A DNA stretch of 33,959 nucleotides, from NCBI GenBank assembly GCA_903842345.1, contig CAIMLR010000017.1, forward strand, positions 1 through 33,959, read 5' to 3'. This DNA comes from an uncultured Myxococcales bacterium. GTDB lineage: Bacteria > Myxococcota_A > UBA9042. The translations under genes and the position numbers were made by a program. Shown piece after piece: positions 276-30,937 of this stretch; the stretch's first letter is position 1; each line of letters begins with the position of its first letter. The notes under the pieces are model-generated. The model was not told the origin of the DNA. It worked only from the letters and a program-made list of their open reading frames with translations, and did no database searches.

Positions 276-1442
276 TCACTTTCCCGCGTTCGAATACCAG
301 ACCTGCCCGCCGTCCTTGACGCGCGCGATTTTCCCCGCGGCCACGAGCCTGTCGACCGTGTTGGCGATGGTCTGCCGCGCCCACTTCCGCTCCGACTCGT
401 CCCAGATGTCGCTTACTTGCATCTCGTAGTCGGGGTGCCAGGCCAGCAGATCGAGGATGAACCGGCCTGCGCTGCCAGCGGAGCGTTCTGCTGGCTTGAC
501 GAGCTGCTGCCCGGTCGCCGGTGCGATTGGTGTCGCGCGAGCTGTAGGTGCTGACGGCACCACGGCGTTCGGCATTGTTGTCGTTGCCGTCGCAGTTGCC
601 GCTGACCACCAACTCGTCCTGCCAGTGATCGTCTTCTTGAGCTTGCCGGCCCTGAGCAGGCGGACCAACGACTTGTAGACATTGGGCTCTGTCCACTTCT
701 GGCCACCGGCGGCGACGATTTCTGCGATCCGCCATTCACGCGCAGGCTTGCTGGCGAGAAGCGCGGCGACGAATTGCGTCGCGGTGGCGGCGGTACGGTC
801 TGACTCAGCCGCGACAAAACTCAATTCTGCAATTGGCTCGGGAACCGCTGCCAGTTCCGGTACAGATGCCATCACCGGTGTTGGTGCCGACTTGGCGCCC
901 TTCGTTGAGCCCGCGATGCCTGCATCCGCCTTCGCGATTCCCCACCAAGCCTGCCGGTCGGCGACGGATTTCCTCACGAGTCCTTTAGCCAGCAGGCGCT
1001 TCATTGTGGTGGACACACCGCCATCGGTCCAACAGCCGCCCGCCTCAACGATCTCCGAAATCCGCCATTCGAGGTCGGGCTGTGTCCCCAGGAGCCCCAA
1101 CACGAACTCAGCCGCGGTGCCTGCTTCTCCCGCCAGAGTCGACGCGCGGTCAGCGGGTTTGCCGGCAGGTTCGGTCGCCCCCGGCGCGACGGGCGGCGTT
1201 TCCGTAGGCGATGACGTCCCGGCCGGCGCCGTCACCGCGGACCACCGCGCTGACCGATCAGCGCCGACGGTTTTCTGGACGCGCCCGGCCGCCAGCAGCC
1301 TCTTCAGCGTCTCGTGGAAGTTGTCGGCCTTCCATCTACCCTCGCACGCCGTGAGAAGTTCAGAGATCCGCCAAGCGCGCTCGGGCTGTCGCGCCATGAA
1401 TGTGAGGATGAATTCTGCCGCGCTACCGGTTCTGGTCACCAT
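276..1442 (-). CDS. Protein of four tandem winged-helix repeats
   Basis: The 388-aa protein has four copies of a roughly 60-residue unit at about residues 6-69, 108-170, 218-282 and 333-386, joined by 35-50-residue linkers rich in Ala, Pro and Thr. Each unit has the same skeleton: an AAEF(I/V)L helix, a WRISE(I/L) helix, a helix ending KRLLA.G, then a short strand pair ending in W(W/Y)S or similar. This fits a compact winged helix-turn-helix. The ATG at 1442 is chosen because AGGGAGAAG lies just upstream; a TTG 21 bases earlier is less likely. It is the last gene of the TIR-STAND/GT4 operon, 42 bases after the GT4 stop. No catalytic motif is visible, so it may bind DNA or act as a multivalent adaptor. 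The function is unknown. Confidence 0.85.
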   Translation of the reverse strand: MVTRTGSAAEFILTFMARQPERAWRISELLTACEGRWKADNFHETLKRLLAAGRVQKTVGADRSARWSAVTAPAGTSSPTETPPVAPGATEPAGKPADRASTLAGEAGTAAEFVLGLLGTQPDLEWRISEIVEAGGCWTDGGVSTTMKRLLAKGLVRKSVADRQAWWGIAKADAGIAGSTKGAKSAPTPVMASVPELAAVPEPIAELSFVAAESDRTAATATQFVAALLASKPAREWRIAEIVAAGGQKWTEPNVYKSLVRLLRAGKLKKTITGRTSWWSAATATATTTMPNAVVPSAPTARATPIAPATGQQLVKPAERSAGSAGRFILDLLAWHPDYEMQVSDIWDESERKWARQTIANTVDRLVAAGKIARVKDGGQVWYSNAGK

Positions 1443-1484
1443 TTGCTCTTCTCCCTGTGCCAATCTGAACTGGTGTGGCTTGGC

Positions 1485-2723
1485 TCACGGTAGCTTGCCG
1501 ATGTACTCGAGCAGCGCTTTCGCGGACTTTTCCCACGTGTACACGTTGAGCGCCTCCTGCGCCAGCGTCACCTGATCACGCGCCTTATTGGGATTAGCCC
1601 AGAGCGCGCGAATCCGTCGACCCCACTCCTGTTGCGATTCCTCTGCCGTCTCCCGAGCGCCCACCACGTGTTGTTCATATAGTTCCACGCTTAAGGTCTT
1701 CAGGAGTTCCGCGAAGCCGGAGTGCGGTGTTGCCAGCACTGGACAACCTGCACCAAGCGCTTCAAAAGCCACCAAACCGAAGCCCTCCTCCGCGGACGGC
1801 ATGAGGGTCACCGAGGCAAGGAACATTTCACGGGCAACATGGCCCGGCTGCGGGTCGTACTCCAGCACGGTAACCCGCACCAGGGGTGAATCGATGTTGG
1901 CAACACAATCCTCTCGGAGCGCCTCCGCCTTGCCGTTTTCACAACCTAGGATCCTGAACTCGATCTCCAACTCCGGTTTGGATACCGCGGCGGCCAAGAC
2001 CGCAGCACAGGCGGTAGGGAGTCCCTTGAGCTCTGGATCTTTTGTACGCGCTACGAGCAGCACGCCCATTCTCGTCGCCGAACCCGTCGTGCGTGGGGAT
2101 CGATGAGGGCCAAATCCCGGCACGAAGCAGAGCAACTGCTTGGTGCCCACGTATTCAGCAATCCCTGAGACCTGGTCGTGCAGGTGCGGGCCCACGCACG
2201 CGACGACATCCGCACCGCTTATCAGCGCTTCAAGTTCGTCGAACTCGGCCGCACGTCGCGCGCCATGTGCCCCGTCCACCTTGTACGGACGAATCCCCGG
2301 CGAATACGTATGCACAAAGACGACGATCTTTGCTTCAGGCCAACGGCTCCGATAGGTCTTTGCAAGCCCGCCGGTCTTGTCGTCATGCCCGATTACGATG
2401 TTCGGCGCGAATGCTTCGAAACCAGGGTAGTCGACAATGGGCGTCTGGATTAGATACCCGTTAGTCGAAGGATCTACGCCGGAAACCAACTTGGCGGGCC
2501 AAATCAAGACATTCTCCTCCACACGCGCCGCGCCTTCCATTGGCGGCACGTAGCAGACCACCCGGCATTCGAGTTTGGCAAGGCTCCTGCACAACTTCTG
2601 GTTGAACACAGAAAGCCCGCCCTTGGTAGGGTCCCACTCAGTGGCGAGAACCAGCACGTCTTCCCTTCGCTCCGCACTGGCGGCGACGTCACTGTATGCG
2701 GCAGTCAATGACAGGTTAGTCAT
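1485..2723 (-). CDS. GT4-fold glycosyltransferase-like protein linked to a STAND ATPase
   Basis: The protein has 412 aa with a two-lobed GT-B layout. The N-terminal lobe starts with a TEWDPTKGGLS motif at residues 28-38, typical of the loop after the first strand in GT4/glycogen-synthase-like enzymes. The C-terminal lobe has the nucleotide-sugar signature E-x7-E (E313 to E321, in EGFGLVAFE) followed by GAGCPVL, so the donor site looks intact. No signal peptide or membrane segment is seen, so it should be cytosolic. Its ATG overlaps the TIR-STAND stop by 8 bases, which implies translational coupling and joint function rather than ordinary cell-envelope synthesis. It may glycosylate a target, sense a nucleotide sugar, or serve as a ligand-binding subunit. 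The fold assignment is confident; the role is inference. Confidence 0.85.
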   Translation of the reverse strand: MTNLSLTAAYSDVAASAERREDVLVLATEWDPTKGGLSVFNQKLCRSLAKLECRVVCYVPPMEGAARVEENVLIWPAKLVSGVDPSTNGYLIQTPIVDYPGFEAFAPNIVIGHDDKTGGLAKTYRSRWPEAKIVVFVHTYSPGIRPYKVDGAHGARRAAEFDELEALISGADVVACVGPHLHDQVSGIAEYVGTKQLLCFVPGFGPHRSPRTTGSATRMGVLLVARTKDPELKGLPTACAAVLAAAVSKPELEIEFRILGCENGKAEALREDCVANIDSPLVRVTVLEYDPQPGHVAREMFLASVTLMPSAEEGFGLVAFEALGAGCPVLATPHSGFAELLKTLSVELYEQHVVGARETAEESQQEWGRRIRALWANPNKARDQVTLAQEALNVYTWEKSAKALLEYIGKLP

Positions 2724-5700
2724 TGCGTCCTCCCAGAAGGTCCAACAGTTCGCTCGGCTTCAATGGAGTCCATGCGCGCCGCGCAGCAACAGCCGTCACC
2801 TCCAGCGCGCGTTCGGCCAACCAAGCCAAGCCGGTGGCGCTGGCCAACGCCGCGAGTTCGTCCGCCGCTGCTTGGGTGCCAAGCGCGATTACACGGTTGA
2901 GCAGTTGGTCCCGCAGCATGGCAGCGCCCTCCTCGGGCCCAACAACCCCGGCTCCGCGTCGTCGGCTGCCCTCGGCTGGGAAGAGGCGAAACATCAGCGC
3001 CAGGATTTCACCATCACGGCGCAGATCCAGCGTGCGCGGCCAGGCACCGGCGTAGCCGCCCCTTCGCCCAAGCGAGTGGAACACCTTGCGCGCGATCTCG
3101 GTGTCCGCCGTCAATACGGGTGCAAGCTGCGGCCACGCGACATCGGGCGAGGCCAGCAGGACCTCGGTCGCGAGTACCGGTCGCAGCGCGTCCGGAATGG
3201 CATTCCCACCCGCATTCACTGCTTCGCAGGCCCACGCCAGAGACTCCTTGTCGCCGTGTGCGAGCAGCAACTCGACAATCGGCGCCTTGGCTTCGGGGAT
3301 GAGGTCCGAACCGAACAACAATTCTCGGAAGAACCCCGCCAAACGGTCATCCCAGCACTGCGCCACCACCCGCTGGCTGAAAACGAACTTGAGCTCCGTG
3401 CTCTCCGTAACGAGCAAGGTCTTGAGAGTTTCGAGAATGGCCTTCGGCGCGTACCCATAGGCTGCCTTCACCAAGTCGGCTTGGAGTGTGTGCTCGTCTG
3501 TCCCGTCCACAGCGACGGCGGTGATGGTGCCCGCCCACTTCTCCCAGAGATCACTTCCAATCACCGCGAAGCGCGCGGGTGCAACTGAATGCAACAAGCC
3601 GAAAGCCGCGTAGCCAGCCGCCGCCGGATGGTGAACCGCGGACTTGCCTAGCCACGATTTCAGATCTGGATCGCCGGTGTCCAGATACGCTTCTGCGAGC
3701 GAAATCAGGCGTTCCCTCGTCTCCTGCGTCGCATCGTGCCACCCGGGCATCGCGGTGACCATCGTGCGCAGAGGGCTGCCGTACTGCGTCGCACCTGGCG
3801 TCAGCGTCAGCTGTAGCCAGACCTTCCACCACCCGTCTTTCGGGTCTTGTTCACCTCGTTCGAGCCAGTCAAGCACCCGTACTTTGGGGTCGAGGGTTAG
3901 GGACTGGTTGGCGCGTTTCCGTTTCGCCGCTTCTTGCTCAGCTTGTGCGCGCATGAACTCGGCTTCCCTCGCACGCATGCCATTCGCTGCATCGCCGTGC
4001 AGCGGAATGGGGTCGAGGAATGGGCCAAAAGCATAGTGGAGCGACGGATCGGCGAGCAATTGGCCGTAGTGTTCCGCAATAAACTCGCAGGCACCGGCGA
4101 CCGACGTCGCGAGCGTCATGGTAAGCGACGCCCAAGGACCCTTTTGTACATCCGTCAGGGAGTCGGCCAGGGTCAGCAGCCATTCGACGTCCTCAGCGAG
4201 CATGAGCGGCTCCCGACTGAAGACGAACGCCCGCCAAGATGCATCCGTGACGTTTCCGCGCGAGAGTAGAACTTGAATGACCTCTCGCCGCTCCGCGAAC
4301 GTTGGTCGATCAAGCTCTTTCTGTTCGCCTCCCGCTGACCAGGATCCACTCGGCCGCGGAAGGATGGATTCGTGATCCTTGGCCCAAACCAGCGCCAAAT
4401 CGGCGAGTCCACCAACAACGTTTTCCGATCCGATGTTCCTCCATGCAGCACGGACGATGGAATCGCACAGATCGACCAGCGGGCCGTAACCGTAGGAATG
4501 TCCGCGACGGTCACGCGCCCAAGCAAGTGCGGAAGGGAGCAAGTCAGTGGGCAGTTCACGTTCAAGTTCGTACAGGAAGCCCTTGTAAGCCCCGAACAAA
4601 CTTTCCTCTTTGGGTACATCCAAGAACTCGAAAATATTATCCCGAATATCCCCGCTCCGCCAGAGGGCCCGCAAAGCACAGCCCTTGAGTTCGTCCTCTT
4701 TGTCCTCCTTCACTCCCTCGGCGAGCCCGCGCAGCCGCGAGTCGCCCAGTTCTAATCGGGCGATGGTGCCTGCAGCTGCGATACGTAAGCCAAGCACGAT
4801 CTCGGGGCTGAGTGCGAGTGCATAGAACGAGTCCTTGGCTTGTTTGAAGTCACAGTCACGGGCCAACTTGACGGCGACCATACGGGTCGGGACGGAACGA
4901 GCGCTGTCCATCATCGCGTGCTGGACCACGGCTGCCGTGCCGTCGCAGCGAAGTACCTCCCCTCCGTTCAGTTCGTGGGCCTGCGTCCAAGACAGCCGCT
5001 TCTGCTCGACGGCGTCCAAGAGCGCCTGCGCCACTTGGACCTTCATCCCGTCATCGCTGCGGACCACGTCGCTGCGCAGCAAGACGTCCGGTTCCGTGTC
5101 GAGCACTGCCTTTCGAAAGTCGTCGTCGATTCCGGCCAGCCAGGCCGCCACTTCTGCCAACTGCGGCACGACTCGGTTGCGGTCCGTCCCTTCCATGAAC
5201 AGGAGAGAGCGCAACGCGGCGCGGTTCGGATGGCGGCTCGCAAGGAATTCCGCATATGTGCGGTGCGCGAACTCATACCTGGGTTCGTGCAACTTCGGCT
5301 GCGCGAAAAGGGCCATCTTGAGTGCGGCGCGCGTGTTTGCCAGGCTAGCTGTGACCCGAGGAGGCCCGAACTCGTTGCCTGTTGCCCAATCATCGATGGG
5401 GAGGTCATCATGACTGAGGTTCGGGCTGTGGTCGTCAATCGCAGTCAGGTTGGCGAAGACAACCAACGCCGCCGCTTGCGTGTCCAGGGCAAGCAATTGA
5501 GGACCATCCGGCGTGCCAGGTTGAGCGGCCTGGCGATCTGCCCGGGCAGTGTTCGATTCGGAGGCCAGCGCGCGACAGCCCTGCGTGTACAGGTCGCTCA
5601 ATGATGTCGGCGGCAACGCCCCACGGAATCCATGTATAAGCAACTCAAGCGTGACGGGGCGCCGCAGGAGTTCAGTCGCGTTCAGGTCCTTGACACGGGA

Positions 5701-6780
5701 AAGAACTGTGGCCGGATCGAGGCCTGCCTGCCGGAGAATCGTCTCCGCCTCATTGTCTGTGAGCAGTGGAACACGCGCCGTGCAGTAGCCGTGCTCCTTA
5801 AACAGGTCTTTGCGCCAAACATCCCGGATCTGACGTGGCAGGTCCGCGGTCCGACAGGCGACACGCAGGCGCAAACGCCCCAGTGCCTTCCGCTGTGTCT
5901 CCAACTGGTCGGTCAGGAGATCGGTCAGAAGCGGCGTACCCAGCCGACATTCGTCCAAGCTGTCGAGGTACAGCGTCAGCTTGGCGGTCCCCGCCGCCCA
6001 AGCTCGCCACCAAGCCGAGGCGAACACGTCCTCGATCAGCCGCCGCTCATCGGCATACGTCCGCAGGTCCACACCAACCACAAAGTGTTGGGAATCGTTG
6101 TCGGCACGTTGGCGGGCTGCGGCGAACTCGGCGCGCATAGCCGTGCTCTTGCCGATGCCAGGTTCGCCGATGGCAATCACGCAACCAGTGTCATCGAGCG
6201 GCTCGAGGGACGATACGGTTGGCGGCGGGGATGGCTCAAATGTTTCCGTCGTCGGCTGAATGTTCCAGGCGCGCGGTACGGAGCCGGACTTCGGTTCGGG
6301 CAATTTCGGTAGTGACAGTCGGTAGTCTGCTGCAGAACCGGTCGAAGACCGCAGCCGACTGAGCATCGCGCGGGCCACTTCATCAGGAGTCCGCTCACCG
6401 GCCTCGAACCGGCCGTCACCGGAGTAGATTCCCAGCGCACCGAGGTCCCCCGGCTCCGAGAAACACACCGGCATGATGCGCGACGGGTCTGTGGTCGCGA
6501 TAATCTGCCGAATCCCGCGCCATTCCAGCAGAGACCACCGCTTCCTGTCGTATTCGGTGCAAAGGAACACGACGATGAGCTCCGACTGCTCTGAGTACAG
6601 CCGAGGCAAGTAGACGTCCAAGTCCAACCTCGCGAACTCCGCCTCATGGTACTTGTCGTAGAGGATTCGGTCGGGCGAGAGCGTCGTCGCCAGAACCTCG
6701 GCTACCTCCTTAACAAAGGACCGCCACTCTCCGGGAAACAACAGCGCCACAGCGAATCTCTTCAGTTCAGTCCCGCCCAT
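2716..6780 (-). CDS. TIR-STAND (NACHT-type) immune ATPase with helical-repeat C-terminus
   Basis: The protein has 1354 aa. Residues 8-145 form a TIR-like domain: alternating strands and helices, a hydrophobic ELIVVFLC strand, then RWSLLEWRGI, where W82 and E86 match the W-x3-E spacing around the catalytic glutamate of NAD-cleaving TIRs. A STAND NTPase follows with Walker A GEPGIGKST (205-213), Walker B LTLYLDSLDE (268-276) and a sensor arginine in VACR (about 310). FAHRTYAEFLASR (504-516) is the helical block typical after NACHT modules. The remaining 800 or so residues are helical and probably HEAT/ARM-like, a plausible sensor. The start at 6780 has AAGGAG four bases upstream; 30 extra codons are open before it. 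Family knowledge suggests that oligomerisation on detecting an invader triggers NAD depletion. Confidence 0.9.
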   Translation of the reverse strand: MGGTELKRFAVALLFPGEWRSFVKEVAEVLATTLSPDRILYDKYHEAEFARLDLDVYLPRLYSEQSELIVVFLCTEYDRKRWSLLEWRGIRQIIATTDPSRIMPVCFSEPGDLGALGIYSGDGRFEAGERTPDEVARAMLSRLRSSTGSAADYRLSLPKLPEPKSGSVPRAWNIQPTTETFEPSPPPTVSSLEPLDDTGCVIAIGEPGIGKSTAMRAEFAAARQRADNDSQHFVVGVDLRTYADERRLIEDVFASAWWRAWAAGTAKLTLYLDSLDECRLGTPLLTDLLTDQLETQRKALGRLRLRVACRTADLPRQIRDVWRKDLFKEHGYCTARVPLLTDNEAETILRQAGLDPATVLSRVKDLNATELLRRPVTLELLIHGFRGALPPTSLSDLYTQGCRALASESNTARADRQAAQPGTPDGPQLLALDTQAAALVVFANLTAIDDHSPNLSHDDLPIDDWATGNEFGPPRVTASLANTRAALKMALFAQPKLHEPRYEFAHRTYAEFLASRHPNRAALRSLLFMEGTDRNRVVPQLAEVAAWLAGIDDDFRKAVLDTEPDVLLRSDVVRSDDGMKVQVAQALLDAVEQKRLSWTQAHELNGGEVLRCDGTAAVVQHAMMDSARSVPTRMVAVKLARDCDFKQAKDSFYALALSPEIVLGLRIAAAGTIARLELGDSRLRGLAEGVKEDKEDELKGCALRALWRSGDIRDNIFEFLDVPKEESLFGAYKGFLYELERELPTDLLPSALAWARDRRGHSYGYGPLVDLCDSIVRAAWRNIGSENVVGGLADLALVWAKDHESILPRPSGSWSAGGEQKELDRPTFAERREVIQVLLSRGNVTDASWRAFVFSREPLMLAEDVEWLLTLADSLTDVQKGPWASLTMTLATSVAGACEFIAEHYGQLLADPSLHYAFGPFLDPIPLHGDAANGMRAREAEFMRAQAEQEAAKRKRANQSLTLDPKVRVLDWLERGEQDPKDGWWKVWLQLTLTPGATQYGSPLRTMVTAMPGWHDATQETRERLISLAEAYLDTGDPDLKSWLGKSAVHHPAAAGYAAFGLLHSVAPARFAVIGSDLWEKWAGTITAVAVDGTDEHTLQADLVKAAYGYAPKAILETLKTLLVTESTELKFVFSQRVVAQCWDDRLAGFFRELLFGSDLIPEAKAPIVELLLAHGDKESLAWACEAVNAGGNAIPDALRPVLATEVLLASPDVAWPQLAPVLTADTEIARKVFHSLGRRGGYAGAWPRTLDLRRDGEILALMFRLFPAEGSRRRGAGVVGPEEGAAMLRDQLLNRVIALGTQAAADELAALASATGLAWLAERALEVTAVAARRAWTPLKPSELLDLLGGRND

Positions 6781-6788
6781 GCAACTCC

Positions 6789-7004
6789 TTACAACGACAC
6801 AACCCGCGGACCCAGCGCGAAGACTGCAGTCCAGCCGACCACCGTCTGCGTCTCCGCACGAACAAAGCACGCCTGATCATCCATGAACGACTGGAATTGT
6901 GACCCGGTCGTCTCCCTTCCGCTCGTCAGGCTCCGAACGACGACGCCGCCCGGCAGGTACACCCTCTCCGTCGTTGCCGTCAATGTCCCGTCGCTTCCCG
7001 CCAT
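6789..7004 (-). CDS. Possible small leader protein of the TIR-STAND operon
   Basis: A 71-aa frame ends 8 bases before the TIR-STAND start. Its stop codon overlaps the AAGGAG ribosome site of that gene, which would couple their translation. The sequence has several predicted strands (an RVYLPGGVVVRSL stretch and a TVVGWTAVFALG stretch) and no known motif. ATG at 7004 is the chosen start; a TTG three codons upstream is also possible, and neither has a strong Shine-Dalgarno. It could be a small accessory or regulatory subunit of the system, or a chance frame in GC-rich DNA. Confidence 0.45.
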   Translation of the reverse strand: MAGSDGTLTATTERVYLPGGVVVRSLTSGRETTGSQFQSFMDDQACFVRAETQTVVGWTAVFALGPRVVSL

Positions 7005-7763
7005 CCGGCACAACAGGGCACCCAGATCAAACCGGCGTCAGCCGCCCACGCGAAGCGCCGCGAGCGCCGACACCGCGAGAACGTGCGCGAGCCAGCGCGC
7101 ACCGGCGCCCCACGGCGGCAAGGCAGCGCACCAACGTCTGGACCGGCAGAACCACGCCGGTCGCGCGCAACGCCAGAATTATCGCCGGTAATATCCTGCC
7201 CTTCAACCCAAGCGCGCGCACCGGCGCCCAGTCGCGCCAGCCCGGCGGTGCACGGCCGCGCGTCCGCGCAGGAGCGTGCCGGTGGCCGGCGGCTGCGCCA
7301 CCGCCCACCGCTCCCCCCTATGTGGACGGTCCACAGAGGGAGAAAAACCGACACAAGACGCTGAGAATACTGATGATCTCTCAAGCCATTTGGCGCGATT
7401 TCTGGGCCTGCGGCGCCCGGGCCCGGCGCGCCGACCGCCGACTTCTGCGGCGCCGCAACCGGCCGTCGGTGGCCGCGCCGGCCGCGCCGCTGGCGCAGAT
7501 CACGCGGTGATGAGGCCTGGATCGCGCCGGCACCGTGGCCTCACGGTTCGCCCTATTATGCGCGCGGATCAGATGACCGAAATCGCTTGGCTGTGGGGAT
7601 TCGGGTGCTACGATCCTCGAGCCGGGCGCAACCCGGCACTCCTGGACAGCCGTGACCTTCCTTCTCCAACCCAGCCGCCTGAACGTGAACGTTGCCCCAA
7701 CAGGTTGTCCTGGGTCACCGTGTTGCGCGCGTTCAGGTGGCTGTGTTGGCGCAGGAGGGGCCG
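7005..7763. other. Non-coding stretch between divergent genes
   Basis: About 760 bases separate the minus-strand TIR-STAND operon from the plus-strand polymerase gene, so promoters for both should lie here. I see no convincing gene. The open frames are rich in Arg, Ala and Pro, as expected for chance frames in GC-rich DNA. A minus-strand frame at 7027-7308 has one hydrophobic stretch but no ribosome site and no recognisable motif. A perfect palindrome lies at 7321-7335. Confidence 0.6.
7321..7335. repeat. 15-bp perfect palindrome, possible operator
   Basis: TGTGGAC and GTCCACA are exact inverted repeats of 7 bp around a single G. It lies in the gap between the divergent TIR-STAND and polymerase genes, about 430 bases upstream of the latter. 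It could be a dimeric regulator site. No T-run follows, so it is not an obvious terminator. Confidence 0.35.
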
Positions 7764-20663: not shown

Positions 20664-23600
20664 TCAGGGCGCCAGATCAATCGCCCACCGCGCCAGTTCC
20701 TCACTGCCCAGCGTCGATCGCCCCAGCAAGGTCACCAGCTCTTCTTGCCGCGGTTGGCCGAACGCGACCCGATAGGCCGCGAGCTGCCGCTTGAGCGAGC
20801 GGAGTTCTTCGACCTCCCGTGTGTACGGCAAAGCGGGAACGCGGCGCTGCACCTTGAACGGACCCGGCGCGACCCAAAAGGGAATCAAGTCGCTTTTGCC
20901 TTCAGCTCGCGCCGCCGCATCAGCAAGTCCGAACAGCGCGGCCCACAGGTCCGTCCCTGGGCGCCACAAGTCGAGCGCTTCCTTCTCATGCTCGTGCGCG
21001 ACGTTCCGGCGGACCGCGTGTCCCTTGTAGCGGTGCACACGCCCTTCGCGCTGCTCCAGGTCCACGGGATTGCCGGGCAGATTCCAGTGGACGAGGCGGT
21101 GACACCAAGGGTGGAAGTCCAGCCCCTCCTGGCCGATGGATGTGCTCGCCAGCACGAACGGCCGAAACGGACTGTTGAAGGCCGCGCGGAGGTCGTCTTG
21201 CGAAAATTGCTGTTGGTCGGTACGCACGTCGCCAAAGCGCAGGGCGAAGCTGGTCCGCACCCGGACGGTCTGCTCTTGCACATCCCCCTCGCGGTCATTG
21301 GGCAGATCCAGGCACTGTGCGTGGACACGCGCGACAGGTGGCTCGACGACTTTGGCCAGTGCCTGCAGGCACTTCTCAGCCGCGGCGTCCGGGTCTTCGC
21401 CTGCTGACCACGCGACCTGCTCAGCGCCCTGATGCCAAGCCTCATCAAGCACGGCCTGCAGATTGCCATCGATGCAGTAACGCAACACGAGGCGCCAGTA
21501 GTGCGCTTCCTCGCGGGACGCCACGGATGAGCGCGGCGTCAACTGGTGCAGAAGCTTGATGACATCCGGACGATTGAACAGCTTCCAGAACCCGTGGGCC
21601 AGCTTGAGCGCCAAGCAACGGCGCACCGGCTCGGATACTGGGCTCGCCAGCATCATCCGGGCGGCGAGCACCGCGGGGGACCCGAGGGCGACATCCGTCA
21701 GCAGATCGGCGAGGCCGTCCGGCATGCGACCCAAGTTGGTCCGATCCAAGCTCAAAAAGTCGTCGACGTGGCTGACAAACGCATCCGGGTTGGGCACGTC
21801 GGTGGCGGCGCGGACGCTCTCAAGAAAGGGCCCGAGACCCGGGTCCAGCGCCAGCGGGGCGTACCATTCCCACCGATCGTCCACTTCCTGTGCCTGCTGC
21901 TCCGGCGTCGTGCACGCCGCGAGCAACTCGACCACACGCGCGCGCACCCACGTCCGGCGGTCCACGCCTTTGGGCGCCGCGAGTGGATGCGCTTCGTCAG
22001 CCAATGTCAGACATGGCATCAGAAGAAGAAACAGCCGATGCCGCGCCAGAGTGCCTGCACCGCCTTGTGTGAGGCGGAGCAAGGTGGGCTGCTGTCGCGA
22101 CCGGCCAGAGTAGGAGGCGAGCTGTCCGCCCATCATGCGCCGCTCTGCTTCATAGCTCAGCACCGCGCTGATCGCATCGGGGACAACGTTCCAGGCAGAG
22201 AACAGCAACGTCTTGGTCTGCCCTCGATGACCGGCGAACGCTCCCGCAAGCGGCCAATACTCCACGGTGGGCGGGATCCACAGCAACTGCCACAGGCCAC
22301 CGTCCAAGAGGTCCCGCGCCACGTCGCGCAGCTTGGCGTTGGCGAGGGGCACGGGATTCCAGCGACTCAACGAGGCGTGCTGCAGGAAGGCCAGCGGGCG
22401 CGCCCGCACCACTTTTGTCACGTTACCGCGACTGTTTGCCAGCGCTTCTGTCAGGCGTTCATGGAATTTGTAGCCATGCATGAAGTGCGCGAGATAAGGC
22501 GCCGATTTCCAATACGCCATCGGGTCATTTTCGCCGACAGCCCGGAAGATGGCGTCGGCTGCCATGTACTGGTCGACGTCCTCGCGCAGCAGTTCCAAGA
22601 CGGACTCTGGCGCCTCGACCATCGCGTCGCGATCTTCGCTCGAGGAAACTCGCTCTGTGCGCGCCATGACGGTCCGCAGCGCCGCCTCCACTTTGACCTT
22701 CGCGCCCAGGACGTCAGCTTTCCCGCCGGTCGCAACCCGCTTGAGCGCGCCACCGAACGCCGCAAGATCCTGTTGCAACGCATCGACCCGCGCGGTGTCG
22801 TGCTTGAACAGGAACCGCGTCGTGGCGAGAAAGTCGGCGAAATGCTCTTCGTCCGCAATTTCAGCGTCTTTGGTGAACAGTTTGTAGGGCGTTGCTGACA
22901 GAAGCAACGTGCGCACCGGCTGCCCCTCGGGCGTGGTGAAATCGAAGAGCGATTGCGCCAACTCTGCCGCAGGATCGCGCTTGTCCGGCCGGGTCTCAAG
23001 CAGCGGTTTGAAGCGCTGGAACTCATCGAGAATAACGAGGTCCGGCTGCAGCGCGCCAACGCAGACTTCCGCCAGCAACTTACGCAACTTGCCGATCAGG
23101 GCATTGCGCGGAACACGCGCATCTTCGGGCCAAGCCTCGCGGATGCGAAAGAACCACGCGTCGCACAAGCTGCGGATCTCGATCTCCAGCGCGGGGTCAG
23201 CGGCAAATTTGGCCGCAAATTCGCTGCGGATCGACGCATCGATGGCGAAGGCCGGATTTTGCAAACGCCAGCGCCAGTCGTCAGTACGGGAAATGCCTCC
23301 CTGCAACAGGTTGGACAGTGGAGTCCAGTTGCCGATGAGTGGCAAGAGCAAGTGGAAGAGGACTTCGCGCTCCTCACCGCGACCCGCCGAGTTGCCCAAT
23401 TGGAACGACGTCGACGGCGTAAAGCTGATGAAGTTGAGCTTGCTGTCGGCGATGCCTCGCTCGCCATCACGCGGGGAGAGCTGCGTCGCGAGCATCGTGA
23501 GCCGGGTTGCCAGCGAGAAGGAGCGTTCGCCTTCCACCCCGACCGTCAACTTGGGCAAGTTCGCGCGTGCGATGCTGCCGTTGCTGCAGATGTAGAGCAC

Positions 23601-23813
23601 GTCGATACGCTTGACGTCGTCCCACAGGCGGTCAATCGTCTTGGCGATGACACCGCGGGCGACGAGCGTCTTGCCCAGCCCGACCTCATCGGCCACCAGG
23701 AACCGCGCGGTGCTGTCCTCAGCCTCAAAGAGCCGGTGAAAGGCGTGGTCAACGGTACGACGCTGAAAAGGCTTGAGAGGCGCCAGGATCTTCTCGACGT
23801 CGGGACGGTTCAC
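20664..23813 (-). CDS. SNF2/superfamily 2 helicase-like ATPase of a defence operon
   Basis: The 1049-aa protein has the helicase motifs in order: a Q-like KPFQRRTV near residue 14, Walker A ADEVGLGKT (41-49), motif II LVILDEFQRF (DEFQ at 263-266), motif III SATPYK (306-311), and in the second RecA lobe IGQEGLDFH and EQREGRVHR (about 890-930). A large insertion sits between the lobes. It should translocate on double-stranded DNA or remodel protein-DNA complexes. The GTG start overlaps the TGA of the PLD gene as GTGA, so the two are translationally coupled, as in other helicase-PLD restriction-like systems such as DISARM. It is the last gene of the DUF6361-PLD-helicase set. Confidence 0.9.
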   Translation of the reverse strand: MNRPDVEKILAPLKPFQRRTVDHAFHRLFEAEDSTARFLVADEVGLGKTLVARGVIAKTIDRLWDDVKRIDVLYICSNGSIARANLPKLTVGVEGERSFSLATRLTMLATQLSPRDGERGIADSKLNFISFTPSTSFQLGNSAGRGEEREVLFHLLLPLIGNWTPLSNLLQGGISRTDDWRWRLQNPAFAIDASIRSEFAAKFAADPALEIEIRSLCDAWFFRIREAWPEDARVPRNALIGKLRKLLAEVCVGALQPDLVILDEFQRFKPLLETRPDKRDPAAELAQSLFDFTTPEGQPVRTLLLSATPYKLFTKDAEIADEEHFADFLATTRFLFKHDTARVDALQQDLAAFGGALKRVATGGKADVLGAKVKVEAALRTVMARTERVSSSEDRDAMVEAPESVLELLREDVDQYMAADAIFRAVGENDPMAYWKSAPYLAHFMHGYKFHERLTEALANSRGNVTKVVRARPLAFLQHASLSRWNPVPLANAKLRDVARDLLDGGLWQLLWIPPTVEYWPLAGAFAGHRGQTKTLLFSAWNVVPDAISAVLSYEAERRMMGGQLASYSGRSRQQPTLLRLTQGGAGTLARHRLFLLLMPCLTLADEAHPLAAPKGVDRRTWVRARVVELLAACTTPEQQAQEVDDRWEWYAPLALDPGLGPFLESVRAATDVPNPDAFVSHVDDFLSLDRTNLGRMPDGLADLLTDVALGSPAVLAARMMLASPVSEPVRRCLALKLAHGFWKLFNRPDVIKLLHQLTPRSSVASREEAHYWRLVLRYCIDGNLQAVLDEAWHQGAEQVAWSAGEDPDAAAEKCLQALAKVVEPPVARVHAQCLDLPNDREGDVQEQTVRVRTSFALRFGDVRTDQQQFSQDDLRAAFNSPFRPFVLASTSIGQEGLDFHPWCHRLVHWNLPGNPVDLEQREGRVHRYKGHAVRRNVAHEHEKEALDLWRPGTDLWAALFGLADAAARAEGKSDLIPFWVAPGPFKVQRRVPALPYTREVEELRSLKRQLAAYRVAFGQPRQEELVTLLGRSTLGSEELARWAIDLAP

Positions 23814-25627
23814 GGCGCCTCCGGTGCGGCGACGGCCGCTTCCACAGCCTGCCAGATGGCGAACAAGTCGTCCGGGATCACCTTGCTACCCTCCTCGGTC
23901 GCGCGGAGGTCAATGAAGAGCTTGCGAATCGCCTCCAGGCGGGTTGGCGCGCGGGATGCGGTGCGCAGCAGGTCGTCGAGCAGCGTCTCTCCATTGAGTC
24001 CGGCAGTCCAAGCCGACTGGCTTGCTGCACCCGGCTCCTTGGCGCCGATCGACCACTCGACCAAGCCCTCCAGGCCGCCCAACAACGCGCGCAAGTAGCA
24101 TAGCAACCGTTCCGGCGAGTCGATGAGCGAACGCAGAACGCGGGCGACACGGCCTTCCGGTAACCCAACGGCCGGCAACTTCAGCGTAACCCGGACATCG
24201 TCCACGTGTGGGTGGTCGACACGCAGCATGAACCCGGCGAACGCGGTGAGCCGGGTGTCAGGCAACCGCCAGTCCACCGACGCCGTCAGCGCCTTCGCGT
24301 CGTCCTCTCCCCACGCGATGGGCCAAAGCGAGGCAGAGACGCCGTCGGGCAGTTCCACGCCGCCTTCCACGCGCCACTGCCACAGTTCGCCATCGGGCGA
24401 GCATTGGATCCGCAAGTCTGCAGCCAAAAGCAGGCGCAACGCCTTGTCCATCTGGCGCTGCGCCTCGACCTTCTTGGCGTCCGACGGCGCGGCACGTCGC
24501 TGGTAGGGCTCGCACAACCGGTCGAGGAAACCATCCTGGGCAAACCGCGCAATGCCAACGCCGGTCTTGCCATTCGGCCCGCCTTTCGGGCCTGTCAGCG
24601 TCGCCATCAACTCCACGTTGGCGCCAGTAAACGCTGCGGAAGTCAGGTTAGCCGAGCCGACAAACCAAGTCGCCTGTGCCCCGTGTTCGACCACAATCAG
24701 CTTGGCGTGGAGGCCATGGGCTTGGCCGAGGTGACCATCCTCAGCCTCGCCCTGCGCCGCCTCGCGCAGCACGCGAACCTCGCGCCAATTCGGCGTCGGG
24801 TCGTGTTGCAATGCGTCCAGCGATTCCTGTCGACTGACAAGCGTGCGCTGGTCAGAACCGCATGCCGCGACGGACTCGAGCGCAGTTTTGTTCACGAAGG
24901 GCGCCATGGCCAGCACGCTGGTCCCGTCCTTCAGCGGCCTCCAGATGCGCGGCCTGCCTTCGCTGAGCCCGAACGCCTTGAACCCGATCGCACCCTCAAA
25001 TCCGTCGGCCTTCGGCACCGGGAACTTCGCGTAGTCCAGCGCGTCCGCCAGCGCGGCGAGAGAAGCGACCACAGTTTCTGGCACCTGGAGTTCCGGACGG
25101 GCGAACCCCGCGATCTGGCGAATGAATGCTGCGAGTTCGCGCGACTCGGGCACGCGACGCCGCTCAGTGGTAGACGTCTCGCTGGCCACGGCGATGTCCC
25201 ACGATCGGTCGAACGTCAGGTTGCGCGACAGCACGGCGACTCGGACGACCGGCGCCGCCGTATCACTGGCAAATTTGGCCACCCAGACTTTGGGATGGAA
25301 GGCGCCACCGTTCGGCGCACGAACCGGGTGGACGCTTGATTCCAGCATCGCGAACAGCGGACGCGCAGTCGCGGGCACAGCGATGCCACCGTGGTCCACA
25401 AACACGTGCACCCGCCCGGCCGCCTCACGTAACGCCGTCAGGATCAGCAGCGGATCGGCCAAGAGCTGCTCAACGCCGTGGTCCGACTGCGCGAGGACCG
25501 CGAGCGGCAGAGCAAGCAGCGCCTCGAGATCCAGGCTGTACGTCGTCAGCACGGCCGTCTCAAGCCGATAGCCGGCCGGAGGGCGCAGGAGGTCGACGGC
25601 AACTTGGCGGGCCTCAGGAGGTAACAT
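23810..25627 (-). CDS. Phospholipase D-family (HKD) nuclease
   Basis: The 605-aa protein has two HKD motifs. The first is H111-P-K113 in AFHPKVWVAKF with N136 in SRNLT. The second is H307-A-K309 in GLHAKLIVV with N327 in GSANLTS. Both copies keep the HxK and the following Asn, so a phosphodiesterase active site formed by the pair looks intact. In defence operons this family usually acts as a metal-independent nuclease, not a lipase. The C-terminal third is helical and unrecognised. Its ATG shares one base with the DUF6361 stop (TGATG) and its stop overlaps the helicase start by four bases, so the three proteins are probably made in fixed ratio. Confidence 0.9.
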   Translation of the reverse strand: MLPPEARQVAVDLLRPPAGYRLETAVLTTYSLDLEALLALPLAVLAQSDHGVEQLLADPLLILTALREAAGRVHVFVDHGGIAVPATARPLFAMLESSVHPVRAPNGGAFHPKVWVAKFASDTAAPVVRVAVLSRNLTFDRSWDIAVASETSTTERRRVPESRELAAFIRQIAGFARPELQVPETVVASLAALADALDYAKFPVPKADGFEGAIGFKAFGLSEGRPRIWRPLKDGTSVLAMAPFVNKTALESVAACGSDQRTLVSRQESLDALQHDPTPNWREVRVLREAAQGEAEDGHLGQAHGLHAKLIVVEHGAQATWFVGSANLTSAAFTGANVELMATLTGPKGGPNGKTGVGIARFAQDGFLDRLCEPYQRRAAPSDAKKVEAQRQMDKALRLLLAADLRIQCSPDGELWQWRVEGGVELPDGVSASLWPIAWGEDDAKALTASVDWRLPDTRLTAFAGFMLRVDHPHVDDVRVTLKLPAVGLPEGRVARVLRSLIDSPERLLCYLRALLGGLEGLVEWSIGAKEPGAASQSAWTAGLNGETLLDDLLRTASRAPTRLEAIRKLFIDLRATEEGSKVIPDDLFAIWQAVEAAVAAPEAP

Positions 25628-26832
25628 CAGGCCACCAGTCCGCGATGCAAGTCGGTAAGCAGCTGGCGGACGCGAAACCAGCGAAAGTCCATGCGGCCAA
25701 CGCCAACGCGACCGCCCCAGTCCTTGAGACGATCGGGGTTGGCCAAGCGCGCCCGGCCACCTGGCTTGAGTTCGCGCTCGCGGGCCTCGACCAGTTTTCG
25801 CAGGGTTTGGTCGGGGACGATGTCCTGGCCGCGCAGTTCATTCGTACGCGCCGCCCATGCCTTGACGAAACTGTGCTGTCTGTCCGGGACCCTTCCGCCT
25901 GCGCGAATCACAAATAGCCGCAGCATTTCGGCGTCGAACGGCGCCTCCTGTTGCTCGCGACCGAACCATTCTGCGAGTTCCGCGCGATACTGATCGATGC
26001 GTTCGGCACCGTTGCCGATGAGCGCAAACCGGCGCTCGGCGAGGAGCAGGTTGTAGACAAGAGGCGCGCCTTCCGCGAGGAGAGAGAACCGACGGGCCAG
26101 TTCGACCGCGGCTTGGATCTCGGCAGAGGCATCCTGAACCGCCGGCTCGTCCCAAAGTTGAGATGTTGGAGCGGCTGAGCCTTCTGACGCCAGCCAAGCG
26201 AGCAACGAACCGGGACAGCCCTCCTGCATCCGGCCGCGCACGAACTCGGCCTCCTCACGGGTCAGCGCGAAAGTGACGGCCTTGGGAAAATCGCCAGGTC
26301 GCTTGGGCAACCGCGAGTGCCAAGTCTCGCGACCCGCGACCGAGACGCCAGGATCATCGGTGCGAACAGTGTCGCACTGCGAATGCGCGAGGGAAGAAAA
26401 ATTGGCGTGGTACCAACTGCCGCTCTGCCGGGGCATGAAAATCCGCCACCGCGATAGTCCTGCCCAGTACACCGAACTCGGCAACCGGCTGACAGCGGCC
26501 CCCGCGCGGGCGCCAATGACGCCGTCGGAGTCTTCGTTGCGGAGCAACGGCGCGATGACCTCGACTTCGGCAGCGCGTACGCGCCTGACGATGTCTTCAC
26601 TCCGTACGCGCTCCGCCTCCAAGGCCTTGTAGATCCAAGGGACAAACAGCATGTAGCGGAGGCGTGTCTGGATCGACGATGTTCCGGGAAAGAGGGCGTC
26701 CGAAAGTGTGTCGCGCAGAGTGCCGAGGCCCATTTCATCTACAGTGCCGGTTTCGGTGAACATGTCGAGGACGCGCCGCATCTTGTCGCGATCGCTGGAG
26801 GTGAGGTCGATCCAGGTGAGTGTGGGGTCCAT
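25627..26832 (-). CDS. DUF6361-family protein
   Basis: The 401-aa protein matches my recollection of DUF6361: an N-terminal LTWIDLTSSDRDKMRRVLD, a DTLSDALFPGTSSIQTRLRY segment and LFVPWIYKALE (about residues 5-75). The function of the family is not established. I recall it occurring beside PLD nucleases and helicase-related proteins, as here, which points to a component of a nucleic-acid-targeting defence system, perhaps a recognition or scaffold subunit. No nuclease motif, membrane segment or signal peptide is visible. AGGAG lies about 11 bases before the ATG. It is the first gene of the tightly overlapped trio that ends at 20664. Confidence 0.8.
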   Translation of the reverse strand: MDPTLTWIDLTSSDRDKMRRVLDMFTETGTVDEMGLGTLRDTLSDALFPGTSSIQTRLRYMLFVPWIYKALEAERVRSEDIVRRVRAAEVEVIAPLLRNEDSDGVIGARAGAAVSRLPSSVYWAGLSRWRIFMPRQSGSWYHANFSSLAHSQCDTVRTDDPGVSVAGRETWHSRLPKRPGDFPKAVTFALTREEAEFVRGRMQEGCPGSLLAWLASEGSAAPTSQLWDEPAVQDASAEIQAAVELARRFSLLAEGAPLVYNLLLAERRFALIGNGAERIDQYRAELAEWFGREQQEAPFDAEMLRLFVIRAGGRVPDRQHSFVKAWAARTNELRGQDIVPDQTLRKLVEARERELKPGGRARLANPDRLKDWGGRVGVGRMDFRWFRVRQLLTDLHRGLVA

Positions 26833-27295: not shown

Positions 27296-29254
27296 TCATT
27301 CCGGATGGTTGTCCGTTGAAACCGCCCACGAAACCAGTTCCAAAAGGCCGTCGTCGATTGCCAACTTGTGCCCTTTCAACGGCCCGTCGGGAAACGTCCC
27401 GCGGCTGTCCGCCTCGGTAGGAATCAGCGGCCACGCACCCACGCCACCGCTCGGGTGTGCCGAGAGCCAAGAGCCGAGCGGGCCACCGTCCCAGTGCGCC
27501 CGTCGCCCCGACGCATGCGCGGCAAACATCGCCCTTTCAGTCCCGGGAAACAAGATCACCACCCATGCTGGGCGCGGCGAAAGAGCGTCCCGGTAGGTGT
27601 GCATCTTGTACAGGTCCGCGTTCTTCCAGTCGCCGCGTCGCTCCGCCTGCGAGGTCGCACTCCCGTCTTGCTCGGACGCCGCCTCCACCGAGATGTCTAC
27701 CCGGTATTTGGCGTCGAAGACCAGCACACGCTGAGTTTCCCGGTCGCCAGGGCCCTGGAGCACAAAGTCCGGACGCAGCCCGACGGACCAACTCCGGAAC
27801 GGTCCTCTGTTGCCAGTCGAGTAATTGAAGGAGAGGACCACGGCTTCTGACGATGTCCTTCCCAGACGGTTCCACGTCAGTCGAACGCTGTTTTCCGGCA
27901 GGCCGGAGTGCTCGCAGGTCGTTTGGAACACCTTCCAGTCTGCCTCACCATAGCCGCGACCGCGTAGCGCACAGGCGACCGCGCCGCCCAGCTGGACAAA
28001 GCACCAATATTCGTACACGTCGTATGCCTTGCGCATCGGCGTCGTCGCCCACGCCGGATCAACCGAGAACGCGAGATTTGTCCGCAGCGAACGCCAGAGT
28101 TGACCAAGCCGACGGTAGCGCGGGTCGTGCAGCAGGACCGGGTTCCCTGGATCAAAGCCCTGGTCAGGGTCCGCCTCCGCCAAGGGCCCAGTGCGCCACA
28201 GACCCGCCAGGCGCGCTGCCCAAGACTCCAAGTCAGTCGCCGTCCTCGTCCAGTAGCTCCCGCGGTGAAGTTCGGTTCCGAAGGCATCGGCCACGTCCTC
28301 GCGTGCATGCCGGGCGACGCCGTGGAGCCAACGGACCACCATCGCCGCAAAACGGTTCGGCGGTGTGTCCAGGGTCGTCTGGACCCGGCGTTCAGGAAGG
28401 GACGCGGGCAGCAGCAGGTGACCGTCCGGCGCGCGAAGCACACCTGAGGGCGAACGTACCGCGCCCCGCGCCACCGCGTCGTGCAGGAGCGTCGGCTCCA
28501 CGCGCCCTACCCGACCAGCGGGCATCCAGCGGACGGTCGCATCCAGACGATGGTGCGGGCGTTCCAGAATCAGATGGACGACGCGGTCCAGTTCCTCGCG
28601 GTAGTGCGACAATTGCTGAAGGCGTTGAAGGGCCGATTTCGTCAGGTCAGCGCCATCGCCGAGCTCGTTCGCCACTGCGCCCGCGGACGAGTGGACGAGC
28701 GCTGTGTGCAGGCGCATGAGGTCGTGAAAAACACGCTCCGCAATCTGCGGGCTCCCCAGCTTGCGGGGCCAGATGACCAGACGCAGCCACAGGTCTGGCG
28801 GCAATGACTCGGCTGCGTCGTCCAGAGCATCCAGAGGCAGGTGCATCTCGATCTTGCCAATCTCATGTCCAGTCGAGAACGTCCTGCCATGTCCAATACC
28901 CAAGGGCGTAAACAGCGTCGGGTCAGACTTCGCGGTGCGGCCGACCGAGACTCGACGGCTACCGAGAATATGCAGCGCTCCGCCTTCGTCCAGTCGCAGC
29001 CAGTGCGACGGGAACAGGTGCGGATCGTTGCCAGGTGTCTCGTGCGGCCAGCTCAACCCGGTTCCGGGCAGCAACGCCAGCCGCCAGCCGACCGGCAAAT
29101 CGAGAAGCCAGACGCGCGCATCCGCCACAGCGTCGGGACTCAGCTCCTCCTGCTGGAGTTCCTCACGACCTAGCGTGCCAGCCACCCAAACCGTCAGACG
29201 CCGTTGACCAGCGCTGTCGAGCACCACAAAACCCGAAAACGTGTGGCTCGGCAT
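27296..29254 (-). CDS. McrC-like DUF2357 nuclease subunit
   Basis: The 652-aa protein is a DUF2357-type partner of an McrB-like ATPase. The first 250 residues are strand-rich; a helical section follows (about 290-420). A C-terminal PD-(D/E)XK nuclease has D496 in RPDFVL and D514-A-K516 in VLVFDAKYR, with LYKMHTYRDAL as the following helix, all as expected for McrC-type enzymes. It should be the DNA-cutting subunit, acting when its ATPase ring translocates. ATG at 29254 starts three bases after the McrB stop. The protein is much longer than classical McrC because of its N-terminal domain. Compare the lysine-lacking homologue at 18981-20261. Confidence 0.9.
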   Translation of the reverse strand: MPSHTFSGFVVLDSAGQRRLTVWVAGTLGREELQQEELSPDAVADARVWLLDLPVGWRLALLPGTGLSWPHETPGNDPHLFPSHWLRLDEGGALHILGSRRVSVGRTAKSDPTLFTPLGIGHGRTFSTGHEIGKIEMHLPLDALDDAAESLPPDLWLRLVIWPRKLGSPQIAERVFHDLMRLHTALVHSSAGAVANELGDGADLTKSALQRLQQLSHYREELDRVVHLILERPHHRLDATVRWMPAGRVGRVEPTLLHDAVARGAVRSPSGVLRAPDGHLLLPASLPERRVQTTLDTPPNRFAAMVVRWLHGVARHAREDVADAFGTELHRGSYWTRTATDLESWAARLAGLWRTGPLAEADPDQGFDPGNPVLLHDPRYRRLGQLWRSLRTNLAFSVDPAWATTPMRKAYDVYEYWCFVQLGGAVACALRGRGYGEADWKVFQTTCEHSGLPENSVRLTWNRLGRTSSEAVVLSFNYSTGNRGPFRSWSVGLRPDFVLQGPGDRETQRVLVFDAKYRVDISVEAASEQDGSATSQAERRGDWKNADLYKMHTYRDALSPRPAWVVILFPGTERAMFAAHASGRRAHWDGGPLGSWLSAHPSGGVGAWPLIPTEADSRGTFPDGPLKGHKLAIDDGLLELVSWAVSTDNHPE

Positions 29255-29257
29255 CAG

Positions 29258-30937
29258 CTAGAAAAACCCGGTGACGCCGTGGTCGCCCAGCCGGTGTTTC
29301 AGCTTCATCACCCGTGCGTGGCTGCGGGCCAGGTCAAGCGGAGAATCCCGCAGTGCATCAGCCAGGGCGTCGAGCGCGGTCTCCAGCCCCTTGCCGTGAC
29401 CGCGCAACTTGGGCAGCACCGTGCCGATGAACGTGAGGTCCAGCTGTTCACGTGGCGCTGCGAGGAGGCGTGACGCTCCCCGGTAACCCGGGTGCAGGCT
29501 GATGGCCTCAAGCGCGTTGCGGCATGCCTCCAGGAGTGCCAAACGCTCCTGCCGATCCGGCCCCGCGACGACATTCTCTGCCAGCCACAGGTAACTCACG
29601 TCGTTCAACTCCAGCACCAGCGCGCGGTCCAGCACTTTGGGCGAGAAACCAAACGTTGTCTCATCCACATTCACCGTGCCGACGATGCCCAGATTCTGCG
29701 GATAGGCCAAGTACGGGGGCACCCAGCGAGCTCCGGCCGGCGCCTTCGGCAGTTGTCCAGCACGCTGCTCCGACGTCCACGCCGCCTCACCGCGCAAGGG
29801 GCCGAGAGGGCAGGTCTTGCAGCCATCGCCCGCAGCCACGCAACGCGCCGTGCCGTTTGGGGCACCGCGCGTCTCCTCCTGCGCCGTCGCCACACAGGCC
29901 GTTTCCGCGTGAATCCGGACGCGCTCCTTGCCTTTCGGTTCGACGCCGGCGCCGTGCGACCAAGGCAGTTCCCGCAGGCTCAGTAAGTCGCTGAGGTAGT
30001 ACTCTGGCCGCGCCAGGTTCATCTCGTCCAGGATCAACGTGTGCTTTTGCGCCTCAGGCCCCTTCGCCATCATCTCAAGCCAGGCGTTCAGGATGAGTCC
30101 GGTCACCTGCGTCGCTCGGAAGGTGCCGGTCAGCGGGTCCAGATAGCCGGTCAAGTCACGCGCTTCTGTCCACTCTGGCCGGACGGGCACGAGTTCGACC
30201 GCGGGATGCGCTTTGTCTTCCGGCACGAGCAACTGGGTAAAACTCCCATCGCCCCAAGGAGTCCCTGCCGTTTCCTGCACGCCCGCCCGTTGATCCGCCA
30301 GCAGCCGGGCGACCTGGGTCTTGCCGGTGCCGCTGATGCCTGCCAGCAGGACGAACGGGTGGTCGTCGTCGAGCAGCGTGTCGCGGAGCAGCTTGAATTC
30401 ATTTGTCGGGAAAAGGCGATGAGCCATACCGGTGCTCCTTGGCTTGGGAGGAAGCACCGCGGCTTCGGCGTCGTCGGGATCCGGATCTGCCCAGTGCACA
30501 TCGAGGGTGTTCAAGTTCGCCGGGGGAGGCAGACCCAGCAGTTCATTCATCGTGCTGTGCGTGGCCAAGATCAGCGACACCATCGCCATCCCGACCTCGC
30601 GAGCTTCTCCAGACGGCTTACGGATCCCGAGCAAGACGCCGTTTCCTTGGTTCTGCCCGCCTTGCCATCGCGGCCCAATGACAATGCCCTGAAGACCCTG
30701 AACAAGCGGCTGAAGCGCGTCAATGAACTCCTGTTGTCGGTCAAACAGCTCCGAGCGCTCGATGTGCAATTCAGCACCGATCTCCCCTTGGCCGAGAATC
30801 AGTTCGTAGTGCGTCGATCCTGGCCACCCGACCGGACGAATCTGGCGGTAGGCGTCGGCCCGTCCTTGCGCGCGGTACTCGCCACCTCCGAACCGAGCGG
30901 TCCACGCCTCAAGAACGGCCGTAAGATCTCGATGCAT
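29258..30937 (-). CDS. McrB-like AAA+ ATPase with four-cysteine insert
   Basis: The 559-aa protein has an N-terminal alpha/beta domain (about 1-130, unnamed, perhaps DUF4268-like) and a McrB-type AAA+ module. Walker A is AGISGTGKT (199-207), Walker B is LILDEMN (301-307) followed by ARPEYYLSDLLS, sensor 1 is GTVNVDETT (420-428) and the finger region is SPKVLDRA. Between Walker B and sensor 1 lies an insert with C348, C366, C373 and C376, arranged like a zinc-binding knuckle. It would form a ring that powers the McrC-like nuclease encoded three bases downstream. The ATG at 30937 has an AAGG eight bases upstream and a promoter-like pair of boxes at 30977-31006. Confidence 0.9.
   Translation of the reverse strand: MHRDLTAVLEAWTARFGGGEYRAQGRADAYRQIRPVGWPGSTHYELILGQGEIGAELHIERSELFDRQQEFIDALQPLVQGLQGIVIGPRWQGGQNQGNGVLLGIRKPSGEAREVGMAMVSLILATHSTMNELLGLPPPANLNTLDVHWADPDPDDAEAAVLPPKPRSTGMAHRLFPTNEFKLLRDTLLDDDHPFVLLAGISGTGKTQVARLLADQRAGVQETAGTPWGDGSFTQLLVPEDKAHPAVELVPVRPEWTEARDLTGYLDPLTGTFRATQVTGLILNAWLEMMAKGPEAQKHTLILDEMNLARPEYYLSDLLSLRELPWSHGAGVEPKGKERVRIHAETACVATAQEETRGAPNGTARCVAAGDGCKTCPLGPLRGEAAWTSEQRAGQLPKAPAGARWVPPYLAYPQNLGIVGTVNVDETTFGFSPKVLDRALVLELNDVSYLWLAENVVAGPDRQERLALLEACRNALEAISLHPGYRGASRLLAAPREQLDLTFIGTVLPKLRGHGKGLETALDALADALRDSPLDLARSHARVMKLKHRLGDHGVTGFF

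Follow-up and report, generated by a model that had tools for sequence, protein, structure and literature searches.

Two overlapping genes on the minus strand of the DNA stretch analysed here (positions 1-33,959; hereafter the window), one encoding a TIR-STAND ATPase and the other a GT4-conflict glycosyltransferase, are best read as an anti-phage, or counter-invader, STAND module with two effectors, the TIR domain acting in cis and the GT4 protein in trans. On the strength of the sequence comparisons set out below, the probability of this reading is put at roughly 0.6. A gene for a tandem winged-helix protein follows the pair, and is likely to be a separate accessory gene that has become a passenger behind the GT4 gene.

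The sequence-only reading had described four tightly packed genes on one strand. These are a 71-codon open reading frame (ORF), the TIR-STAND gene, the GT4 gene and a gene encoding four winged helices; all were found at the coordinates it gave, and its spacing was reproduced with refined starts (Table 1), there being an 8-base gap at 6788-6781, an 8-base overlap at 2723-2716 and a 42-base gap at 1484-1443. The TIR-STAND start was placed at the ATG at 6780, preceded by TAAGGAG; a GTG at 6870 was rejected, its extra codons scoring -0.14 per codon as against +0.16 for the gene. A TTG at 1463 was likewise discarded as the start of the winged-helix gene, as the ATG at 1442 fits the conserved N terminus of its relatives, MATRTGSAAEF. 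The 3' end of the STAND gene reads CTTCTGGGAGGACGCAATGACTAA, and within it lie both the GT4 start codon and, 5 bases before this ATG, a GGAGG motif, an arrangement which suggests that the two genes are translationally coupled. Coding scores per codon are 0.155 for the STAND gene and 0.154 for the GT4 gene, with the 71-codon ORF, at 0.075, reaching half the value of the others; this ORF matched nothing in Pfam or PADLOC and had no significant relative among the loci compared (best E 0.21), and its standing as the first gene of the operon is doubtful. The IS66 remnant that had been noticed beside the operon is genuine. The contig itself begins at window position 1, inside this transposase end, hence the downstream side of the operon is cut off.

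Table 1. Positions of the operon genes and of other features in the window.
Feature	Position	Strand	Basis
IS66-family transposase, C-terminal end, at contig edge	1 to about 147	+	translation read by eye
Tandem winged-helix protein, 388 aa, four domains	276..1442	-	domain profiles, relatives
GT4-conflict glycosyltransferase, 412 aa, 8-base overlap with TIR-STAND gene	1485..2723	-	PF20706, motifs
TIR-STAND(NACHT-like)-HEAT protein, 1354 aa	2716..6780	-	profile, alignment, coding score
TIR domain of TIR-STAND protein, LYDKYHEAEF subfamily	6300..6780	-	alignment, structure match
71-codon ORF, ending 8 bases ahead of TIR-STAND gene; coding status doubtful	6789..7004	-	
ZacABC candidate defence system, complete	20664..26832	-	PADLOC
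PD-(D/E)XK_7/DUF2357 nuclease and AAA protein, McrBC-like pair	27296..30937	-	

The TIR domain spans about residues 7-160 of the TIR-STAND protein. It matches a home-made TIR profile with an E value of 3e-58, and scores 18.2 bits with Pfam TIR_2, under the gathering score of 28. An AlphaFold model of the domain (pLDDT 76) matched bacterial, plant and animal TIR structures, and the presence of PdTIR, BtpA, RPS4, RUN1 and AbTir among its best matches in the PDB identifies the fold as that of a TIR domain; both AbTir and RUN1 are NAD-cleaving. The motif RWSLLEW, at residue 81, holds the glutamate of the W-x3-E pattern known from TIR domains, which we take to be the catalytic residue, and which is invariant in all 19 aligned TIR sequences. 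The TIR domain probably destroys NAD. The first matches of the TIR search had only this domain in common with the window protein, being joined to other partners, and so were set aside as a test of the system.

Behind the TIR domain are a P-loop (GEPGIGKST at residue 205), a Walker B motif (YLDSLDE at 271) and a NACHT-type motif (FAHRTYAEFLA at 504), followed by a long tail of helical repeats with HEAT-like signatures that continues to the C terminus. The Walker A and B residues are invariant in nine aligned STAND sequences and FAHRTYAEFLA is also conserved, as expected of a STAND ATPase; a weak profile match to NLRP3 lies near the latter motif. The AlphaFold model of the core (pLDDT 56) was too poor to be used in fold searches. 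An N-terminal effector, a central STAND ATPase and a C-terminal repeat sensor form the layout of TIR-STAND, or TIR-NLR, and Avs-type defence proteins, as in the window; we know of no GT4 partner in the characterised examples of either.

Amongst curated families, the core matched NCBIfam antiphage_EruA (NF058535; E 1e-32, 113 bits, cut-off 1000) and HyoA (NF058534; E 1e-16, 59 bits, cut-off 1200). As these scores fall far below the curated cut-offs, the window protein is a relative and not a member of these families, and its STAND-HEAT core is, by profile comparison, distantly related to these antiphage NACHT proteins. The homology extends over the NACHT region and the helical region following it, but leaves out the TIR domain and the C-terminal part of the tail, and the two models have no GT4 partner. 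A literature search found no paper on EruA or HyoA, and no PADLOC model matched either the TIR-STAND or the GT4 protein.

Searching with the STAND core detected relatives, many of which were weak, in 20 genomes besides that of the window, out of 379 sampled, as well as on plasmids and IMG/VR contigs. Their ends vary: one (L070) has an EAD1 end, with GASH and GAP1-N1 genes alongside; another (L071) combines NACHT with an FGE-sulfatase and adjoins a PD-(D/E)XK_7 gene; and a third (L073) ends in a calcineurin-type phosphoesterase and adjoins a BrxL gene. That the ends are exchanged while the STAND core stays the same is consistent with their acting as effectors. A TIR domain was absent from all of the approximately 20 other EruA/HyoA-like STAND relatives compared, hence the exact pairing with TIR rests on one genome. 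In our own reading of the alignment, the tail of a relative on a Bradyrhizobium plasmid (L075, 7866-12113) resembles a PD-(D/E)XK nuclease; about 3 kb upstream of this relative there is a TIR gene.

The GT4 protein matches the Pfam GT4-conflict family (PF20706) across the entire profile, positions 1-385 of 385, with an E value of 3e-85 and 286.9 bits against a cut-off of 26. Its EX7E motif (EGFGLVAFE) and nucleotide-sugar R/K motif (VARTKDPELKG) are intact, and E313, E321, R226 and K233 are invariant across five sequences; we know of no donor, acceptor or activity for any GT4-conflict protein. Raw matches to PF20706 were rejected as a measure of co-occurrence, since ordinary GT4 enzymes made almost every genome, and each of the 14 controls, positive; a home-made profile of five domains, applied at E <= 1e-30 to 379 genomes of the phylum, was therefore used instead. 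GT4-conflict was present in only four of these genomes, in three of which a STAND ATPase is either part of the same chain or encoded next to it: that of the window, a congener (G001) in which GT4 is fused to a STAND-TPR protein, and G153, with a fusion to a NACHT-like STAND. In the fourth, G243, the GT4-conflict domain is fused to a PQQ-type beta-propeller (L058, 7185-9704).

Outside these 379 genomes, the same association is found in rhizobia, where Ti plasmids of Rhizobium and pSymA of Sinorhizobium medicae (L074, L077 and L175) encode GT4-conflict C-terminal to the same STAND-HEAT core in one chain, as does the IMG/VR contig L176. These proteins, of about 1640-1670 aa, have the core and GT4 in the same order as the window but lack a TIR domain, whereas the window arrangement has a TIR domain and is split between two genes. 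At a further locus (L177), GT4-conflict is fused to the N terminus of a STAND-TPR protein. Since this kind of GT4 is joined in a single chain to sensor relatives elsewhere, the TIR-STAND/GT4 pair looks real; judged on this distribution, the linkage of STAND to GT4 is not due to chance, and for this core it occurs in at least the window and the lineage represented by rhizobia and L176. The GT4-fused rhizobial and L176 cores group as a clade in a tree of STAND cores; the data speak neither for nor against a clade that joins them to the window core (p-AU 0.28), and the tree does not decide between one and two joinings of GT4 to the STAND family.

Fusions of this general kind have been predicted before. 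Kaur, Burroughs, Iyer and Aravind 2021 (PMC8195603) reported fusions of GT4 with STAND NTPases of the AP-ATPase, NACHT, SWACOS and nSTAND2 types, a subset having an N-terminal TIR or caspase domain, and predicted that they are counter-invader systems, proposing GT4 as the effector. The window shares with them the conflict-clade GT4 (PF20706) and the STAND ATPase, and with the subset the TIR domain; having TIR and STAND in one chain and GT4 in an overlapping gene, it has the composition of a TIR-STAND-GT4 conflict system contained in one protein or operon. However, GT4 is fused, often C-terminally, in the published proteins and is encoded by a separate overlapping gene here, and the STAND part is an EruA/HyoA-like NACHT-HEAT core as opposed to the STAND types of that study. 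Hence the claim of the sequence-only reading that GT4 joined to a TIR-STAND protein is without precedent is true of experiments, but not of predictions. Two features are new: the division between two genes of a system built on an EruA/HyoA-like core with a TIR domain, and a family of tandem winged-helix proteins confined to one genus.

The surroundings are consistent with a role in defence. Judged by gene content, the 34 kb window is a defence island: all three components of the candidate system ZacABC were detected by PADLOC (ZacC with 1041 bits and an E value of about 0, ZacB with 4e-152 and ZacA with 2e-123), the McrBC-like pair lies nearby, and another AAA gene has a PADLOC candidate match. 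The coupling of a TIR-STAND protein to GT4 in a defence setting, as originally proposed, is thus borne out by the EruA/HyoA-related core, the GT4 fusions elsewhere and these neighbours. Divergent to the operon, a gene at 7692-9680 (+) encodes a 662 aa protein in which polymerase-like motifs, VEVDYKNLHIRML and VPVICVHDSF, were seen by eye, as in T7-type RNA polymerases; it matches PHROG 4756, of unknown function (E 2e-26), and has no match in Pfam or the PDB. The protein of a further CDS, at 31453-33372 (-), combines six treble-clef zinc fingers of the DUF4379 type with an end resembling a DUF559/HNH nuclease.

The remaining gene of the operon encodes four MarR/Penicillinase_R-like winged-helix domains, all intact and of similar quality, separated by Ala/Pro/Thr-rich linkers. 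It could be imagined as part of one four-part machine, serving as a nucleic-acid sensor or DNA-targeting arm alongside the TIR-STAND and GT4 proteins, and the soundness of its domains agrees with this; furthermore, it shares the strand of the GT4 gene, which it follows after 42 bases, has a plausible ribosome-binding site and lacks the upstream region of its relatives, hence it is probably co-transcribed with the pair. However, when 129 genomes were searched with a domain profile, every member of the protein family came from the taxonomic family of the window, with no match in the plasmids, phages and viral contigs searched. The five genomes of the genus have single-domain winged-helix genes and ten loci with tandem genes of two to four domains, nine of them outside the window amongst toxin-antitoxin, recombinase and other accessory genes. 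None of these nine has a STAND, GT4 or TIR gene nearby in the stretches read, although the absence is weak evidence in the three cases where the contig is under 6 kb, and no such winged-helix neighbour occurs at the approximately 20 loci of STAND-core relatives or the other GT4-conflict loci examined. The 200 bp upstream that are conserved among most of the other tandem loci are missing in the window, where homology begins no more than about 40 bp from the ATG and stops at the stop codon. These observations make a four-part machine quite unlikely: the co-occurrence expected of the large proteins is seen for STAND and GT4, as fusions in other genomes, but not for the winged-helix protein, and the earlier proposal that the latter belongs to the machine is not upheld. 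It is more probably a mobile, lineage-specific DNA-binding gene that shares only a transcript with the TIR-STAND/GT4 pair. A PADLOC match to PDC-M05A was dismissed, as it reflects the shared winged helix only, PDC-M05 being a nucleotidyltransferase/HEPN pair.

Two further associations of the winged-helix family were observed. At six of the nine loci (L120, L121, L122, L124, L125 and L126), which have the conserved upstream region, a gene near the tandem genes, usually divergent to them, encodes a CxxC protein of only about 80 aa (MRLIGIL...VPCASC...FDDGAI...CPSCD), and a serine recombinase-like gene adjoins three of the six; this may be a separate mobile unit. In genome G000 (C7:473000-482000; L089 2619-4464, +), a CD-NTase-like gene followed by a gene for a CBASS-effector-like membrane protein, both recognised by eye, adjoins one of that genome's single winged-helix genes.

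Two other explanations concern the pair itself. GT4 might be a guard, antitoxin or licensing partner of the TIR-STAND protein, or an enzyme that modifies it, in which case there would be no second effector. A fixed order of overlapping genes, with the products as separate chains, would be suitable for a regulator made in equal amounts, and GT4-conflict does occur at either end of STAND proteins; however, the fused relatives carry GT4 in the absence of a TIR domain and at the position where other relatives have their probable effectors, its catalytic residues are conserved, and the effector position is also that assigned to GT4 by Kaur 2021 (PMC8195603). Such a regulatory role is consequently regarded as unlikely. 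The idea that the genes have no defensive function, being accessory genes that gathered by chance at an IS66 element and have in part begun to decay, is less credible still. It draws on the operon's position next to the IS66 remnant and the contig edge, and the winged-helix gene does resemble a chance neighbour, but the overlap that holds the GT4 ribosome-binding site, the coding scores and intact motifs of both genes, the recurrence of STAND-GT4 fusions elsewhere and the surrounding defence island all argue against it.

The sequences themselves show the domain content, the intact motifs, the gene overlap, the island setting and, elsewhere, GT4-STAND fusions and winged-helix genes that lack STAND or GT4 neighbours. 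In the two-effector reading, we infer a sequence of sensing, oligomerisation, NAD cleavage and glycosylation by which the pair would confer immunity. The HEAT-like tail would be the likely sensor of an invader molecule, upon which the NACHT-like ATPase would bind ATP and oligomerise; the clustered TIR domains might then cleave NAD+, or produce an NAD-derived signal, so that either the cell or the phage is stopped. Because its gene overlaps that of the STAND protein, the GT4-conflict protein would be synthesised in parallel with the latter and would serve as a second effector, glycosylating a target in the invader or in the host; the pair would represent a split version of the rhizobial single-chain STAND-HEAT-GT4 proteins. 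A more elaborate version, in which the STAND sensor simultaneously drives two chemically distinct effectors, with NAD cleavage by TIR in cis and glycosylation by GT4 in trans, and the winged-helix array has been recruited for regulation of the operon or for reading DNA, is improbable; were it true, GT4 would be the first glycosylating effector shown in bacterial immunity.

Comparative genomics has led to the proposal that GT4 domains act as immune effectors, both in bacteria and in several invertebrates, and we know of no test of this role. The GT4-conflict family is now placed beside a STAND-HEAT family with named relatives called antiphage proteins. In the split two-gene form TIR and GT4 may be switched off separately, which is harder in fused proteins; hence the effector role of GT4, and its target, would become directly testable.
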